Below are positions 39,303-49,688 of a stretch of 64,000 nt of DNA, piece after piece. How positions within the stretch are numbered: position 1 is the stretch's first letter; every line of letters starts with the position of its first letter. A model generated the notes under the pieces. It was not told the DNA's origin, ran no database searches, and worked only from the letters and a program-made list of their open reading frames with translations. A program made the position numbers and the translations under genes. Source of the stretch: an uncultured Candidatus Entotheonella sp. (lineage in GTDB: Bacteria; Tectomicrobia; Entotheonellia; Entotheonellales; Entotheonellaceae); NCBI GenBank assembly GCA_951828535.1, contig OX639990.1, positions 359,300-423,299 of the forward strand. The letters run 5' to 3'.

Positions 39303-41003
39303 ATGTACCGTATGTTGACGAAGCTCACGAGCGTGGGCGTCGCGTTGGCGCTCTGCTTGATGGGAACCGCCTCATGGGTCAGCGCGCAGAATGATCTGGC
39401 GGTGACGGATTCAATGCTGCTGGCCGACCCGGCAGCATCTTGGCTGCACACCAACGGCAATCTCGCCGGGCATCGTTACAGCGTGCTCACGCAGCTGAAC
39501 ACTTCCAACGCCGGCGACCTCAATGTTGCCTGGATGTTCGCGCCGGGCGGCGAGACCGATGCGCAGAATACGCCGCTGTACCACGACGGTCTGGTGTACT
39601 TCGCGCAAGACAACAAGGTCTTCGCAATCGACGCCCGCTCCGGCAGGCGCGTGTGGAAGTACGAGCACGAATTGCCGGAGACGTTTGGCGGCTACAACGT
39701 CGATTTCATCACCGGCAAGCACCGCGGTGTGGCCATCCTCGGGAATAACATTTATTTCCTGTCGAATGACACCAAGCTGCACGCCATGGACTACAAGACG
39801 GGCGAGCAGAGGTTCGTCAAGCAATACCTCGATTATCCCGAGGACTTCGAGAAAACTGAGGACGGAGACGCGACCGGTTACGCCACCACCGTCGGACCCA
39901 CGGCCATCCCCGGCCAGATCCTGGTTCCCCTGAACGGCACCGACTTCGGCGGCCTGCCAGGCTGGGTCTATGGCGTCAATCCTGAAGACGGCGAAATTCT
40001 CTGGGAATGCAACATGATTCCCGGCCCCGGCGAGCCTGGCTATGAAAGCTGGCCCGGCGACAGCGCCGAGTACGGCGGTGCCGGCCCCTGGATCACCGGC
40101 GCCTGGGATCCCGATTTGCAGATGTACTACACCGGCACGGCCAACGCCTATCCGTGGAACCCCAAGACCCGCGGCGACGGCAAGATGGACAACCTCGGCG
40201 CTGCCAGCGTGGTGGCGTGCAGCACCGATACCGGCAAGGCAGCATGGCGCTATGTTGTGGTGCCCGGCGACCCCTGGGACTATGACACCATGCAGACCCC
40301 CATGGTCATCACCATTGACGGTCGCAAGACGGTCGTGCATCCGAACAAGACCGGCTACATCCACTACCTGGATGCGGCCACCGGCGAGTTCCTGCGCGCC
40401 CCGGCGTTTGCCGACCGGATTAACTGGATCCAGGGCTACGACGTCGAAGGCCGTCCGGTGGGTCAATTGGACCTTCCGATTGAAGACGGCGGCGCGGTAG
40501 AAGTGTGGCCGAGCCTGTTCGGTGGCGTCAACATGTATCCCAATGCCTACAACCCGCTGACCGGAAACCTGTATCTGGCGGCGACGAATGCGGGCATGGA
40601 GTACAAATTTGAAGACATCAAGGTCATCGCTAACGTGCGCCACTTTGGCGCCTCGGTGGAATTCATCTGGGGTTACGAGCTGGAGTTGGCGATCGACGTG
40701 AAGACCGGCGCTGAGGTATGGCGCGATCAGAAGGGCAAGTGGGGCTATGCAGGCGGTATGCTGACGACGGCCGGCAACCTGGTGTTCTATACCAGCCAAG
40801 CGGGCATCTTCCATGCCACGAATGCCACCACGGGCGAGATCCTCTACACCTTCAACCTCGGCGTGACGCCGAAGGCCGGCCCCATCACCTACATGCTGGA
40901 TGGCAAGCAGTACGTCGTGCAGCCGGTCGGTGGCGTGCCGGGCTGGGATTTCCAAGAGCATAACTTAGAGCACGGCAGCATGGTGGTGGCGTTCAGCCGC
41001 TAA
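39303..41003 (+). CDS. PQQ-dependent dehydrogenase (quinoprotein), lanthanide-type signature
   Basis: The 566-aa precursor has a Sec signal (about 1-28, ending VSA) and the eight-bladed quinoprotein propeller. By comparison with methanol dehydrogenase the active site shows Asp214 (GTDFGG) where the metal-ligand Glu normally sits, Asn281 (GTANAYPWN), the catalytic Asp326 and an extra Asp328 (WDYD). The extra Asp is the residue that distinguishes lanthanide- from calcium-dependent enzymes. The vicinal Cys pair over PQQ is missing. It should oxidise an alcohol or aldehyde in the periplasm and pass electrons to cytochrome c, which is encoded next. Substrate unknown. Confidence 0.88.
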   Translation: MYRMLTKLTSVGVALALCLMGTASWVSAQNDLAVTDSMLLADPAASWLHTNGNLAGHRYSVLTQLNTSNAGDLNVAWMFAPGGETDAQNTPLYHDGLVYFAQDNKVFAIDARSGRRVWKYEHELPETFGGYNVDFITGKHRGVAILGNNIYFLSNDTKLHAMDYKTGEQRFVKQYLDYPEDFEKTEDGDATGYATTVGPTAIPGQILVPLNGTDFGGLPGWVYGVNPEDGEILWECNMIPGPGEPGYESWPGDSAEYGGAGPWITGAWDPDLQMYYTGTANAYPWNPKTRGDGKMDNLGAASVVACSTDTGKAAWRYVVVPGDPWDYDTMQTPMVITIDGRKTVVHPNKTGYIHYLDAATGEFLRAPAFADRINWIQGYDVEGRPVGQLDLPIEDGGAVEVWPSLFGGVNMYPNAYNPLTGNLYLAATNAGMEYKFEDIKVIANVRHFGASVEFIWGYELELAIDVKTGAEVWRDQKGKWGYAGGMLTTAGNLVFYTSQAGIFHATNATTGEILYTFNLGVTPKAGPITYMLDGKQYVVQPVGGVPGWDFQEHNLEHGSMVVAFSR

Positions 41004-41537: not shown

Positions 41538-41647
41538 CGCGGTGAATGCCGGTGACCGGACGGCATCTGACAGCATCTGTCCTTATTGTCTGCTTTGAAC
41601 CATTCTTCCTACATGCTCCACCTCAGCCCCGGCGGGTCAGTTTTTGG

Positions 41648-41676
41648 TTGACACGTTATACCCCCCTTCCTACCAT
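41648..41676 (+). promoter_or_regulatory. promoter of second PQQ dehydrogenase gene
   Basis: TTGACA (41648-41653), 17-base spacer, TACCAT (41671-41676), about 80 bases before the ATG. The TTTTTGG before the -35, the CCTTCC before the -10 and the identical TACCAT -10 match the first dehydrogenase promoter, implying common control or gene-duplication with promoter. Confidence 0.6.
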
Positions 41677-41754
41677 GCGCCCGTCCCTTCCAAGAGTGTG
41701 CTTTACCAACGCAGAACAGACGCTAAATCTCCGGAGTCGAATAAGGAGGGAGCT

Positions 41755-43470
41755 ATGAACCGTATCTTCACACGACTTGTGGGCGTAGGTATGGTCGTTG
41801 CGCTGTGCATGGCGGGCGGCGCCGGATGGGTACAAGCGCAAGAGGAGGATGCACAGGCGGGGGTCACGGATTCGATGCTGGCATCCGCGCCGGCAGCGTC
41901 CTGGCTTCATGGCAATGGCAACTGGGCCGGGCATCGCCACAGCCTGTTGACCCAGTTGAACCCGAGCAATGTTGGCGATCTCAGAGTCGCCTGGATTTTC
42001 TCCACCGGCGGCAAAACCGATGCTCAGGCCACCCCGCTGTACCATGACGGGGTGGTGTATCAGGCGCAGGACAACACGGTCTTTGCCATTGACGCTCGAT
42101 CCGGCGGCCGGTTGTGGAAGTACGTCCACGAGCTGCCCGAGGACTGGGGCGGACAGTTTGCCGATTTCTTCACCGGGAAGCATCGCAACCTGGCCATCTC
42201 CGGGGAGTATATTTATTTCCTTTCCAACGACACGAAGGTGCACGCCATTCATTACAAGACCGGCGTGGCGAAGTTTGTTCAACCATACATGCACTACCCC
42301 AAGGCGTTTGAAAAGTCAGACGATTCCAACGGTTACTTCGGCACCGCCGGGCCGCTGGCCATTCCTGGTCAAATCATCATACCCCTGAACGCCACGGACA
42401 TGGGCGGCTTGCCCGGCTACGTGGCCGGGATAAGTCCCGACGACGGTGCGTTGCTCTGGCAGGCCAACATGATTCCCGGCCCGGGCGAGCCCGGTTACGA
42501 ATCCTGGCCCGGTGACAGCCGCGACTACGGCGGCGCCGGCCCGTGGATCGTTGGCACTTGGGACCCGGACCTGCGCATGTACTATACGGGCACGGCGAAC
42601 GCCTACCCGTTCAACGCCGTGCCGCGCGGCAACGGCAAATACGACAACGTGGGCGCCGCCAGCGTGGTGGCGGTCAACACGGATACCGGCAAGGTGCCCT
42701 GGCGCTATACCGTGGTGCCGGGCGATCCGTGGGACTACGACACCATGCAGACGCCCCTGATCATCACCATTGACGGCCGCAAGACCATCGTGCAGCCCAA
42801 CAAGACCGGTTTCATCCACTATCTGGATGCGGCGACCGGTCAGTTCCTGCGGGCGGCAAGGTTCAGCGACAAGATCAATTGGGCGGACGGCTACGACGTC
42901 GAAGGCCGCCCGCTTAACCAGATCGCGCTGCCGGAGCAGGGCGGCGATACGCTGGAGGTGTGGCCCAGCGTTTTCGGCGGGGTAAACATGTATCCCGCAG
43001 CCTACAACCCGGACAGCGGTATGATCTTTCTGCCGGCAACCAACCTCGGCATGATGTATGGCTATGAGGAAGTCAAGGTCATCAGCAACGTGCGGAATCT
43101 CGGCGCCACGTTCGAGTTTCTCTTCGACCGTGAAGACGCGTACGAGGTGAATCTCGCCCTGAACCTCAAGAGCGGCAACGAGATCTGGCGCGATCAGAAA
43201 ACCAAGTGGGGTTTCGCCGGTGGCATGTTGTCCACGGCCGGCGGCTTAGTCTTCTACACCAGCCAGAACGCCGATTTTCAGGCCGTTGATGCGGCTTCGG
43301 GAGAAATCCTCTATGCCGTCAACCTGGGCACCACGCCCAAGTCGGGGCCGATTACCTATATGCTGGACGGCAAGCAGTACGTCGTGCAGGCTGTCGGTGG
43401 CGTGCCCGGCTGGGGTTACGAGGAGCACAGCCTGGAGCACGGCAATCTGATCGTAGGCCTGTCGCGTTAA
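41755..43470 (+). CDS. second PQQ-dependent dehydrogenase, paralogue of the first
   Basis: The 571-aa precursor has a signal peptide (about 1-29) and aligns with the 39303-41003 product along its whole length, sharing long segments such as NMIPGPGEPGYESWPGD and PITYMLDGKQYVVQ. Active-site equivalents are Asp215 (ATDMGG, in place of Glu), Asn282 (GTANAYPFN), catalytic Asp327 and extra Asp329 (WDYD). The vicinal Cys pair is again absent. The Trp after N282 region is Phe here. AAGGAGG precedes the ATG. A strong terminator follows. The two are clear tandem duplicates with different substrates or metal preference possible. Confidence 0.88.
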   Translation: MNRIFTRLVGVGMVVALCMAGGAGWVQAQEEDAQAGVTDSMLASAPAASWLHGNGNWAGHRHSLLTQLNPSNVGDLRVAWIFSTGGKTDAQATPLYHDGVVYQAQDNTVFAIDARSGGRLWKYVHELPEDWGGQFADFFTGKHRNLAISGEYIYFLSNDTKVHAIHYKTGVAKFVQPYMHYPKAFEKSDDSNGYFGTAGPLAIPGQIIIPLNATDMGGLPGYVAGISPDDGALLWQANMIPGPGEPGYESWPGDSRDYGGAGPWIVGTWDPDLRMYYTGTANAYPFNAVPRGNGKYDNVGAASVVAVNTDTGKVPWRYTVVPGDPWDYDTMQTPLIITIDGRKTIVQPNKTGFIHYLDAATGQFLRAARFSDKINWADGYDVEGRPLNQIALPEQGGDTLEVWPSVFGGVNMYPAAYNPDSGMIFLPATNLGMMYGYEEVKVISNVRNLGATFEFLFDREDAYEVNLALNLKSGNEIWRDQKTKWGFAGGMLSTAGGLVFYTSQNADFQAVDAASGEILYAVNLGTTPKSGPITYMLDGKQYVVQAVGGVPGWGYEEHSLEHGNLIVGLSR

Positions 43471-43744: not shown

Positions 43745-43975
43745 CTAGGCGGATTGAAGGCTGGCGATGGCGTCGAAAATCTCGTCGTTTTCGGGGAATC
43801 GGAAGGTCTTGAGCTTGGAGAAAACCAGCTTGCCGTCCACCCGGACTTCAAAGGCGCCGCCACCGCCCTCGATCAGGGTGGCTACGTGGTCGAATTTGTC
43901 TTTGATTGCGCTCTGCAAACTTGCAGCATCAGGCAAATAGTTTCATTCGCCGCAGTATTCAATAGAGATGTCCAC
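43745..43975 (-). CDS. SelW/Rdx-family selenoprotein with in-frame UGA
   Basis: A 76-aa thioredoxin-like protein is encoded if the TGA at 43945-43943 is read as selenocysteine: VDISIEYCGEUNYLPDAA at the N terminus, giving the CxxU redox motif (Cys8, Sec11) where most SelW/Rdx homologues have CxxC or CxxU. The rest matches the family: KDKFDHVATLIEGGGGAFEV, VDGKLVFSK, and RFPENDEIFDAI. The GTG start lies six bases after a near-perfect AAGGAGGT ribosome site. A SECIS-like hairpin follows the TGA. Without recoding the frame would be cut to 10 residues, or to a C-terminal piece with no ribosome site. Role: probable redox protein. It follows lpd on the same strand. Confidence 0.85.
43904..43930 (-). 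promoter_or_regulatory. SECIS-like hairpin for selenocysteine insertion
   Basis: After the in-frame TGA, the minus strand forms a five-pair apical stem (CTGCA/TGCAG, 43926-43922 with 43917-43913) with the four-base loop AGTT, an internal loop, and a lower GAT/ATC stem (43930-43928 with 43906-43904). About 21 bases separate the TGA from the apical loop, inside the range known for bacterial SECIS elements, and the loop contains the GU that SelB recognises in known examples. The fold was worked out by hand. Confidence 0.6.
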
Positions 43976-44082
43976 CTTGGACCTCCTTAGCAGAATTCGG
44001 TTGCCGCGTCAGGTAACGAAGGCGAAATTCTAGTCATTTCGCCCGATAGCGTCAAGCGGCTCCGAAAGGTTGAAGTCTGCCA

Positions 44083-45510
44083 CTATTTGACTCTGGGGGG
44101 GCGGTAGACGTGGGTGCTGTGACCGAAGAAAGCATCAGCCGCCTCCATGAGGGATTCCGAGAGGGTAGGGTGGGGATGAATGCTGAGCGACAAGTCGGAC
44201 GCCAAGGCCGCCATTTCCACCGCCAGCACCCCTTCGGCAATCATTTCCCCGGCGCCGCTACCGGCGATGCCGACACCAAGGATGCGTTGGGTCTCGGGGT
44301 CGATGACCAGCTTGGTGACGCCATCGCGGTGGCCTAGGGTCAAGGCGCGGCCCGAGGCGGCCCAAGGAAATCGGGCAATGGTGACATCACGCTGCTGTTG
44401 TTTGGCCTCCGATTCGGTGAGTCCACACCAAGCGATTTCAGGGTCGGTGAATACCACGGCGGGGATGGCTTGCGGCTCGAACGCCGTCTTCTTGCCGGCG
44501 ATAGCCTCGGCGGCGATGCGGCCCTCGTGCGCCGCCTTGTGGGCCAGCATGGGTTCTCCGCTAATGTCGCCGACGGCATAGATAGATTGCTCGTGGGTGC
44601 GGCGCTGCGAGTCGACCTGCACAAAGCCGCGCGCGTCCAGGGCGACGCGGGTGTTTTCCAGACCCAGGCCGTCGGTGAGCGGGCGGCGTCCCACCGCAAC
44701 CAGAACCTTTTCATTGACCTGTTCCGCTTCCGTGGCGCCAGCGCCTTCGAATCTGGCGCGGATACCGTCCGGCTCTTCGTGTAACGCCGTGACGGTTGCG
44801 TCGAGCATGACGGCGGCGAACCGTTCCTTCAGGCGCCGGCTGAGGACGCGCACGAGGTCGCGGTCGACACCCGGGAGCAGGCCCGAGGTCGCTTCCACGA
44901 CGGAGACCCGTGTCCCGAGGGCGGCATATACCGAACCCAATTCCAGGCCGATGTAACCCCCGCCGATGACCAGCAAACTCTCCGGGATGTCAGGCAGAGC
45001 AAGCGCGGTGGTGGAATCAAGGATGCGGGGCGAATCGGCGCCAAGATCTGGGAGAGATGCGGGAAAGGAGCCGGTAGCCAGAATGGCGTGCTCAAACGCC
45101 ACCACCTCGGTTCCCGACTCCGTACGAACAATCAAAGCGTTCGCATCGCGGAAGACGGCGCGGCCCTGCACGAAGTCAACCTTACGGCGTCGGCATAAGT
45201 CCCCCAGTCCTTCGGTGAGTTTGCCGACGATACCCTTTTTCCATTTCCGCAGGGCGTCGACGTTGATTTGTGGGTCGCCGAACGTCACGCCCCACTCCCT
45301 GGCCTGGCGTGCCTCGCCGATCACCTTGGCAACGTGCAGCAAAGCTTTGGAGGGGATGCAGCCTCGGTAGAGGCAGACGCCGCCGGGGTTGGGCTCGGTG
45401 TCGATGAGGGTGACATTCAGGCCGAGATCGGCGGCCAGAAAGGCCGCGGCGTAGCCGCCGGGGCCACCGCCGATGATCGCGACTTGTGTGCTGCGCGACA
45501 CCGTCGCCAC
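44083..45510 (-). CDS. lpd: dihydrolipoyl dehydrogenase (E3)
   Basis: The 475-aa flavoprotein reoxidises dihydrolipoamide of the pyruvate dehydrogenase complex with NAD. It has the FAD-binding GGGPGGYAAAFLAADLG, the redox disulfide GGVCLYRGCIPSKALL (Cys46, Cys51), the NAD-binding VIGGGYIGLELGS, the second FAD motif IYAVGDISGEPMLAHKA, and the dimer-interface segment IAEGVLAVEMAALASDLSLSIHPHPTLSE with its His-Pro-His and Glu pair. Everything needed for activity is intact. It starts three bases after aceF and completes an aceE-aceF-lpd operon. Confidence 0.95.
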   Translation of the reverse strand: MATVSRSTQVAIIGGGPGGYAAAFLAADLGLNVTLIDTEPNPGGVCLYRGCIPSKALLHVAKVIGEARQAREWGVTFGDPQINVDALRKWKKGIVGKLTEGLGDLCRRRKVDFVQGRAVFRDANALIVRTESGTEVVAFEHAILATGSFPASLPDLGADSPRILDSTTALALPDIPESLLVIGGGYIGLELGSVYAALGTRVSVVEATSGLLPGVDRDLVRVLSRRLKERFAAVMLDATVTALHEEPDGIRARFEGAGATEAEQVNEKVLVAVGRRPLTDGLGLENTRVALDARGFVQVDSQRRTHEQSIYAVGDISGEPMLAHKAAHEGRIAAEAIAGKKTAFEPQAIPAVVFTDPEIAWCGLTESEAKQQQRDVTIARFPWAASGRALTLGHRDGVTKLVIDPETQRILGVGIAGSGAGEMIAEGVLAVEMAALASDLSLSIHPHPTLSESLMEAADAFFGHSTHVYRPPRVK

Positions 45511-46862: not shown

Positions 46863-49556
46863 TCAAGCCATCATCGGGTTGATTTTCTCGGCATCGATGT
46901 CGAGGTCCTGTCGGGCCTGCTGCACGGTCTGAATGGGGAGCTGCCCGTCGACGGCCAGGGCGTGCAGGGTGGCGTAGGCAATACAGCGCGCATCGACCTC
47001 GAAGAAATGACGCAGCGCTTTGCGGCCGTCACTGCGTCCGAAACCGTCGGTCCCCAAGGCGGTAAGCGGTCTAGGAAACCAGCGCGCCACCGAGTCGGGC
47101 AGCGTTTTGGTGTAATCCGAGGCGGCCACAAACACCCCCGGCGCGTCAGCGACGCATTGGCTGAGATGACACTGCCGGGGGGGTTCGTCCGGGTGCAGCA
47201 TGTTCCAGCGGTCGACGTCCAGCCCGTCGCGGCGCAGCGACTTGTAGCTGGTCACGCTCCACACGTCGGCGGCGACGTTGTAGCGTTCGGCAAGCAACTG
47301 CTGGGCCTCCAGCACCTCGTTCAAGATGGCGCCGCTGCCCATCAGTTGGGCTTTGAGGGGGGCCGTCGGGTTTTCCGCTGCCCTGAAGCGGTACATGCCC
47401 TTGAGGATGCCCTCCTTGACCGCCGGGTCGTCGGGCATCGGCGGCATTGGGTAATTCTGGTTCTCCACGGTCAGGTAATAGAAAACGTTCTCCTGCTCCT
47501 CGTACATACGGCGAATGCCGTCGCGGATGATGACCGCGACCTCGTAGGCGAATGCCGGATCATAGGCCAGCAGATTGGGGATGGGGTAAGCCAGCAGGTG
47601 GCTATGGCCGTCCTGATGCTGCAGACCCTCCCCCGCCAAGGTGGTGCGGCCCGCCGTGGCGCCCAGCAAAAAACCACGGCAGCGCATGTCAGCCGCCGCC
47701 CAGATGAGGTCGCCGATGCGCTGGAAGCCGAACATGGAATAATAAATGAAGAACGGAATCGTATTGATGCCGTGCGTCGCGTAGGCGGTGCCGGCGGCGA
47801 TAAACGAGGCCATAGACCCAGCTTCGGTGATCCCCTCCTCGAGCAGTTGGCCGTCGGTGGATTCCTTGTAGTAAAGCAGGCTATCGGCGTCGACCGGCTC
47901 GTAGCGCTGGCCGATGTGCGAGTAAATGCCGCACTGCCGAAATAGAGATTCCATGCCGAACGTGCGCGCCTCATCCGGCACGATGGGCACGATCAGCTTG
48001 CCGACGTCGGGATCGCGCAGCAGTTTGGACAGCAGTCGTACGAAGGCCATGGTCGTTGAAATGGACCGGTCGCCGGTGCCGTGATAGAGCTCCTCGAACA
48101 GCGGCTCAGCGGGCGTGCGCAGGCGCACGGCGGTCTCTTGTCGGTTTGGCACGTAGCCGCCGAGGCTCTGGCGATGCTCGTGCAGATACTGAATTTCCGG
48201 GCTTTCCACCGGCGGGCGGTAGAACGGCGCCCCGGCCAAGGTATCGTCGGAGATAGGAATGCCGAATCGGGCGCGGAACTCGCGCAATTCGTCCTCGTTA
48301 AGCAGTTTCTGCTTGTGGGTGATATTGCGTCCCTCGCCGCTCTCGCCGAGCCCGTAGCCCTTGATCGTCTGGGCCAGAATAACGGTCGGTGCTTCGTCGT
48401 TTTCCATCGCTACCCTGTACGCCGCATACACCTTCTCCGGATCATGCCCGCCACGCCGCATGCGCCGCAGTTGCTCGTCGGAGAGATGGCTGAGAAGGTC
48501 CAGCAGGTGGGGGTCGCCGTTGCAGATATGCTCGCGGATATAGGCGCCGTCGGACACCGAGAATTTCTGGTATTCGCCGTCGACGATTTCGCCTAGGCGT
48601 TTGGCCAATCGGCCGTCGTAGTCGCGCGCGAACACGGGGTCCCAGCCGCTGCCCCAGATCACCTTGATCACCGTCCAGCCGGCGCCGCGAAACAGCGCTT
48701 CGAGTTCCTGAATAATCTTGCCGTTGCCGCGCACCGGACCGTCGAGGCGTTGCAGGTTGCAATTGACGACAAAGATCAGGTTATTGAGTTTGGCGCGGTG
48801 GGCCAGGCTGATCGAGCCGAGGGCTTCAGGCTCGTCGGTCTCGCCATCGCCCAGGAAGACCCACACTTTGGCACGCGGGTCGCGCTGCAGCAGGCCGCGG
48901 TCTTCGAGGTAACAGTTGAAGCGCGCCTGGTAGATACCCATGATGGGGCCGAGACCCATGGAGACGGTGGGAAACTCCCAGAAATCCGGCATCAGCCACG
49001 GGTGGGGGTATGAGGCCAGGCCGCCGCCGGGTTTGAGCTCATTGCGGAAATTTTCGAGCTGCTCCTGCGATAGCCGCCCTTCAAGAAAGGCGCGGGCGTA
49101 TATGCCCGGTGAGGCGTGACCCTGGAAATACACCTGATCGCCGCGCTGGCCGCCGCCGTCGCCGCGGATAAAGTGGTTGAAGGCGACTTCATACAGCGTC
49201 GCCGCCGAGGCGTAGGTCGAAATGTGGCCGCCGATGTCGGGGTCCATGCGGTTGGCACGCACCACCATGGCCATGGCATTCCAGCGCACCAGGCTCTTGA
49301 TGCGGCGCTCGATTTCGCGGCTGCCCGGAAATGGCGCCTGGTCTTCCACCGACACGGTGTTAAGGAACGGCGTCGTGGCCGAATAGGGAAGCGACACGCC
49401 GGCCTGTTGGGCGCGCATCTGGAGTTGTTGCAGGAGGTTCTTGACACGCTCCGGGCCGCCGTTTTCCAACACGTAGTCCAGCGATTCCAGCCACTCTTGC
49501 GTTTCGAGGGCTTCCACTTCTCCGTTCTGCGCCGCGATCTCTGAATGGTTGTTCAT
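46863..49556 (-). CDS. aceE: pyruvate dehydrogenase E1, homodimeric type
   Basis: This 897-aa thiamine-diphosphate enzyme decarboxylates pyruvate and acetylates the E2 lipoyl group. The length and lack of separate alpha and beta chains mark it as the AceE type. Key segments: HISTYASAATLYEVAFNHF with conserved His, the ThDP motif FLGDGETDEPEALGS, NCNLQRLDGPVRGNGK, and GRTTLAGEGLQHQDGHSHL with active-site His residues. The ATG at 49556 is taken because the upstream TTG (49577) is a poorer start. It heads the aceE-aceF-lpd operon, followed by the selenoprotein gene. Confidence 0.96.
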   Translation of the reverse strand: MNNHSEIAAQNGEVEALETQEWLESLDYVLENGGPERVKNLLQQLQMRAQQAGVSLPYSATTPFLNTVSVEDQAPFPGSREIERRIKSLVRWNAMAMVVRANRMDPDIGGHISTYASAATLYEVAFNHFIRGDGGGQRGDQVYFQGHASPGIYARAFLEGRLSQEQLENFRNELKPGGGLASYPHPWLMPDFWEFPTVSMGLGPIMGIYQARFNCYLEDRGLLQRDPRAKVWVFLGDGETDEPEALGSISLAHRAKLNNLIFVVNCNLQRLDGPVRGNGKIIQELEALFRGAGWTVIKVIWGSGWDPVFARDYDGRLAKRLGEIVDGEYQKFSVSDGAYIREHICNGDPHLLDLLSHLSDEQLRRMRRGGHDPEKVYAAYRVAMENDEAPTVILAQTIKGYGLGESGEGRNITHKQKLLNEDELREFRARFGIPISDDTLAGAPFYRPPVESPEIQYLHEHRQSLGGYVPNRQETAVRLRTPAEPLFEELYHGTGDRSISTTMAFVRLLSKLLRDPDVGKLIVPIVPDEARTFGMESLFRQCGIYSHIGQRYEPVDADSLLYYKESTDGQLLEEGITEAGSMASFIAAGTAYATHGINTIPFFIYYSMFGFQRIGDLIWAAADMRCRGFLLGATAGRTTLAGEGLQHQDGHSHLLAYPIPNLLAYDPAFAYEVAVIIRDGIRRMYEEQENVFYYLTVENQNYPMPPMPDDPAVKEGILKGMYRFRAAENPTAPLKAQLMGSGAILNEVLEAQQLLAERYNVAADVWSVTSYKSLRRDGLDVDRWNMLHPDEPPRQCHLSQCVADAPGVFVAASDYTKTLPDSVARWFPRPLTALGTDGFGRSDGRKALRHFFEVDARCIAYATLHALAVDGQLPIQTVQQARQDLDIDAEKINPMMA

Positions 49557-49688
49557 TTTCGCCGTTCCGTTTAGCAAGTTGTATCAGGGGACCAACCGAA
49601 ACCACACCCATCCCCACAGGCCACTTGCCGCCGGATTGCCGGTTTTGCGGCAACACGCGGGCCATGCAGGGAATTGTCTGGACCAACC

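Follow-up and report, generated by a model that had tools for sequence, protein, structure and literature searches.

SelW-like selenoproteins are already known as a family that is abundant in the sea (Sargasso Sea 2005; GOS 2008). They were the most abundant selenoprotein family in the Sargasso Sea set, where their function was described as unclear (PMC1088965), and among the most widespread selenoproteins in GOS (PMC2398784). Very few Cys homologues of SelW were reported from Sec-using organisms (Zhang et al. 2006; PMC1794560). (Seleno)proteins of the SelT/SelW/SelH family are modelled in NCBIfam as SelTWH_Campy (NF041051), a Campylobacter-named entry, and mammalian selenoprotein W (2npb) and C17orf37/MIEN1 (2ljk) affiliate by sequence to the same Rdx family.

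The window, i.e. the whole stretch of 64,000 nucleotides analysed here, derives from an uncultured member of Candidatus Entotheonella, a genus known from marine sponges and belonging to a lineage known for its natural products. It contains a locus that is very probably a selW-like selenoprotein gene, in which UGA would be read as Sec by means of SelB and a hairpin to yield a 76-residue product with the motif CGEU. With the described bacterial SelW-like selenoproteins (PMC1088965, PMC2398784, PMC1794560) it shares the family, the CxxU motif and the marine occurrence; a bacterial SECIS follows the UGA closely in those proteins' genes, and a candidate for one does so here. There is no difference of principle; here the host lineage, Entotheonella, is new and the neighbouring gene lpd is conserved. 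Compared with the Campylobacter-named NF041051, the Entotheonella member comes from a different phylum.

Gene structure and family affiliation

43745..43975, minus strand: selW-like selenoprotein gene of the Rdx family, running from a GTG start to a TAG stop and encoding 76 residues with predicted Sec at residue 11
43943..43945, minus strand: in-frame UGA, the predicted Sec codon, which would supply the second redox residue of CGEU; the same column holds UGA or Cys in homologues
43981..43988, minus strand: Shine-Dalgarno sequence AAGGAGGT, five bases ahead of the GTG

The frame opens with GTG (43975-43973, minus strand), and ten codons reading VDISIEYCGE lead to the TGA (43945-43943), which is codon 11; 65 codons follow up to a TAG at 43747-43745. 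This reading confirms the preliminary description, which had recognised ten codons ending in CGE, the TGA and 65 codons to the stop; it had also seen both the ribosome site and the GTG, and only its spacer of six bases is corrected to five. A purine-rich site also precedes most selW homologues. The sole standard ORF of selW on the minus strand is a TTG-start remnant of 63 residues without the active site. As standard ORF calling yields just this remnant, the earlier expectation that automated annotation could lose or truncate the gene holds. The epithet "cryptic" was too strong, since NF041051 already models this kind of (seleno)protein.

With stops read through, the Pfam Rdx profile had one match in the whole genome of 3.62 Mb, located at selW. 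This match covers profile positions 2-72 with one internal TGA (61.9 bits, E=2.2e-16) and hence lies on both sides of the TGA. The read-through protein obtained 70 bits against Pfam Rdx (PF10262; E=2e-19, cut-off 22.6, positions 2-73 of 74), and the Rdx match is well beyond chance. It also passed the curated cut-offs of the NCBIfam models CXXU_selWTH and NF041051, the latter with 91.2 bits versus a cut-off of 88. The CGEU of SelW aligns with the CxxU/CxxC of the homologues. Profile match and homologue alignment thus agree with the initial assignment to the Rdx/SelW family, with the TGA as second residue of CxxC/CxxU. Among solved structures, the best sequence match was C17orf37/MIEN1 (2ljk, E=2.9e-10); mammalian selenoprotein W (2npb) matched with E=0.011. 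These matches to solved family members point to a thioredoxin-like fold.

Conservation of the UGA and of the downstream loop signal

A comparison set of 145 genomes was scanned for Rdx matches, and matches with one internal TGA were present in 25 of them. Among the loci read, 25 rows have the TGA aligned in one CxxU column and eight have CxxC instead; a tree of these homologue rows explains the Sec/Cys label with two changes. Close and distant homologues carry UGA or Cys exactly at this place, where a missing residue had earlier been named as a point against the reading. The UGA is retained in all four genomes of the taxonomic family. The scan included a single genome of the same genus, that of an uncultured Candidatus Entotheonella MAG (OY282375.1). 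Its SelW protein is 97% identical and the TGA is kept; 8 of 77 codons differ, seven of them synonymously and none before the UGA. The two other family genomes keep the UGA at ~67% protein identity. In addition to the UGA-type SelW, these two encode a separate Rdx paralogue of the Cys type (EYCTQCRWLLRAAW), which the window's genome lacks.

The gene selA scored over the cut-off in 23 of the 25 genomes with a UGA-bearing Rdx gene versus 45 of the 120 others (Fisher p=3e-7, for genomes that are not independent and uncorrected for phylogeny). Of the remaining two UGA-Rdx genomes, one has a fragment of selA where a contig ends and the other is 86% complete.

A candidate recoding signal was located downstream of the UGA:

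43908..43926, minus strand: SECIS-like hairpin; core CUGCA-AGUU-UGCAG (43926-43913), apical G-U at 43920-43919

The stem has 5 bp, and the loop, AGUU, begins 21 nt past the UGA. The bacterial SECIS model comprises a loop of 3-9 nt with a G among its first two bases, a stem of at least 4 bp, a distance of 16-37 nt from the UGA and an MFE of -7.5 or lower (PMC13188914). The window hairpin agrees with this model in its stem, its loop, the place of the G and the distance from the UGA. Its energy, -6.1 kcal/mol for 28 nt and -8.8 for 56 nt, is borderline versus the limit of -7.5. Its stability does not exceed that of synonymously reshuffled sequences (z=-0.17). The hairpin is situated within the coding sequence, directly past the UGA, whereas the SECIS elements of eukaryotes are located in the 3' UTR (PMC1088965).

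Synonymous-codon randomisation was used to test the loop signal across the family. An apical GU loop occurred in 22 of 25 UGA homologues versus 4.2 expected (sd 1.8) when codons were redrawn synonymously, and in none of the eight Cys homologues (1.4 expected). The Ser/Gly codon of the loop was AGT or GGT in 17 of 19 instances, although in the neighbouring ORFs these two account for 4-32% of the synonymous choices. Some homologues with a differing protein sequence in this region (L029, L041) form the AGUU loop in another register. RNAalifold returned zero consensus pairs, and hence no covariation, on a 24-row alignment, in which the window stem closes one base off the usual place and a small number of rows pair in a different register; the randomisation took its place. 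The putative SECIS element is thus weak when the window copy is taken alone, but its signal is strong across the family.

Selenocysteine machinery, further likely selenoproteins and alternative readings

The preliminary description held that the organism makes selenocysteine, and a genome search for selA, selB, selC and selD found all four over their cut-offs. The gene selA (606 bits) is directly followed by selB (363 bits), both over the curated cut-offs, and a tRNA-Sec with anticodon UCA reached 73.9 bits (gathering threshold 47). Likewise over its curated cut-off, selD (319 bits; own-genome 3249000-3253200) lies in a frame of 775 codons behind an NADH-dehydrogenase-like part, a domain named from reading the sequence; the known Ndh-SelD fusion fits this arrangement (PMC2398784). 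The SelD part carries CGGCGAK and hence represents a Cys form. The gene, the place and conservation of its UGA, the full sel set and the family-wide loop signal are direct results of this analysis, whereas Sec insertion at the UGA and the redox role of SelW are inferred.

Read by eye, selA and selB adjoin among ordinary genes (own-genome 3367000-3384500), and inspection of the ORFs of this 17.5-kb region revealed no dioxygenase of the RiPP type next to them. This differs from the Entotheonella RiPP cluster in which SelA/SelB homologues were read as cluster parts suggesting "noncanonical biochemistry" (PMC12858407).

Five of the ten AhpC/TSA matches in the genome hold one in-frame TGA, in each case at a redox position: two TxxU (TGVU and TGGU), one WUPYC and two WUGxC.

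705150-706100, 636070-636507, 109424-109765 and 1573531-1573908 (own-genome coordinates): UGA-bearing AhpC/TSA loci; two of the five genes are adjacent

All four of the UGA-bearing AhpC/TSA genes that were scanned with Pfam exceeded the AhpC/TSA cut-off. Among the formate dehydrogenase, AhpD-like and thioredoxin families of this genome, no UGA form was found except one TlpA-like hit already contained in the AhpC set. As five AhpC/TSA genes and selW carry UGA at a redox position, the selenoproteome of this Entotheonella likely comprises at least six genes, a lower bound.

Readings of the UGA other than Sec have to be weighed against these data. The locus might be a Cys-type Rdx gene turned pseudogene, or its TGA might be a base-calling error for TGC or TGT; a single base separates these codons, and Cys forms of the Rdx family exist. 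However, the UGA is kept in four family genomes with purifying selection downstream of it, and many distant genomes have it in this column too. A sequencing error, raised already in the preliminary description, does not account for the TGA, since separate same-genus and same-family assemblies carry it. With the UGA kept across the family and changes that are mostly synonymous, base-calling error and pseudogene may be regarded as excluded for practical purposes, and their probability is close to nil.

Translation might instead start past the TGA at the TTG 43936, the beginning of the sole standard-code ORF of selW on the minus strand, and give a 63-residue product without redox motif. Such a start is very improbable: the Shine-Dalgarno sequence precedes the GTG at 43975 instead, the codons ahead of the TGA correspond to the N-terminal strand and the CxxC of Rdx, and they are identical between the two same-genus genomes. 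Decoding of the UGA as a standard amino acid such as Trp or Cys, by a near-cognate tRNA or under an altered code, has nothing in its favour beyond the open frame. It conflicts with the full Sec machinery of the genome and with the location of the UGA at the Cys/Sec position of the family, and is highly unlikely. A reassigned code was rejected, since TGA ends 18 of the 40 long ORFs in the window and is thus an ordinary stop elsewhere in it.

Gene neighbourhood and proposed function of SelW

44083..45510, minus strand: lpd, dihydrolipoyl dehydrogenase (E3), upstream neighbour with family synteny; TIGR01350, 491 bits
45514..46806, minus strand: aceF-like, pyruvate dehydrogenase E2; best match TIGR01348 with 510.5 bits, just below the cut-off of 552.1
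46863..49577, minus strand: aceE, pyruvate dehydrogenase E1; TIGR00759, 1368 bits

On the minus strand, selW is the last gene of the order aceE-aceF-lpd-selW. The gene lpd lies directly upstream of selW in all four family genomes, in two of which both Lpd and SelW are only ~67-70% identical to those of the window. Around the more distant homologues with UGA, where the genes were identified by eye alone, no recurring neighbour was found. Two adjacent, similar genes resembling PQQ-dependent alcohol dehydrogenases (39303-41003 and 41644-43470, plus strand) also lie in the window; they score below the curated cut-off of the methanol/ethanol family.

In the reading of the locus as a selenoprotein gene, the ribosome would begin at the GTG 43975. 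SelA would make Sec-tRNA-Sec with selenophosphate from SelD, and SelB, bound to the hairpin just downstream, would deliver it at the UGA 43945. The product would be a thioredoxin-fold protein of 76 residues with the CGEU redox motif. By analogy with the family fold and the CxxU motif, SelW probably has a redox role, most likely that of a small thiol/selenol oxidoreductase which would exchange electrons with low-molecular-weight thiols or partner proteins. Counting SelW, this bacterium has at least six likely redox selenoproteins.

The conserved lpd-selW order suggests that SelW of this lineage may be connected with pyruvate dehydrogenase or with lipoyl redox chemistry. A bolder proposal, which we consider rather doubtful, is that the Entotheonella lineage runs a sizeable Sec-based thiol redox system (SelW together with several Sec-containing peroxiredoxin/TlpA-like proteins) and that SelW is functionally tied, by way of the lpd-selW order, to the lipoyl/E3 system of pyruvate dehydrogenase. 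If true, it would provide a testable partner for SelW, a family of unclear role.

In the literature searched, no earlier report on a selenoproteome of Entotheonella or Tectomicrobia was found; new here are the Entotheonella member of SelW, the likely selenoproteome of at least six genes and the conserved lpd-selW pair. The Entotheonella lineage very probably decodes Sec in at least six genes, and standard ORF calling can truncate or miss such genes. This bears on the reading of SelA/SelB in PMC12858407, as the genome studied here holds genes for SelA and SelB to serve. The pairing of lpd with selW offers a concrete lead on a possible target of SelW.
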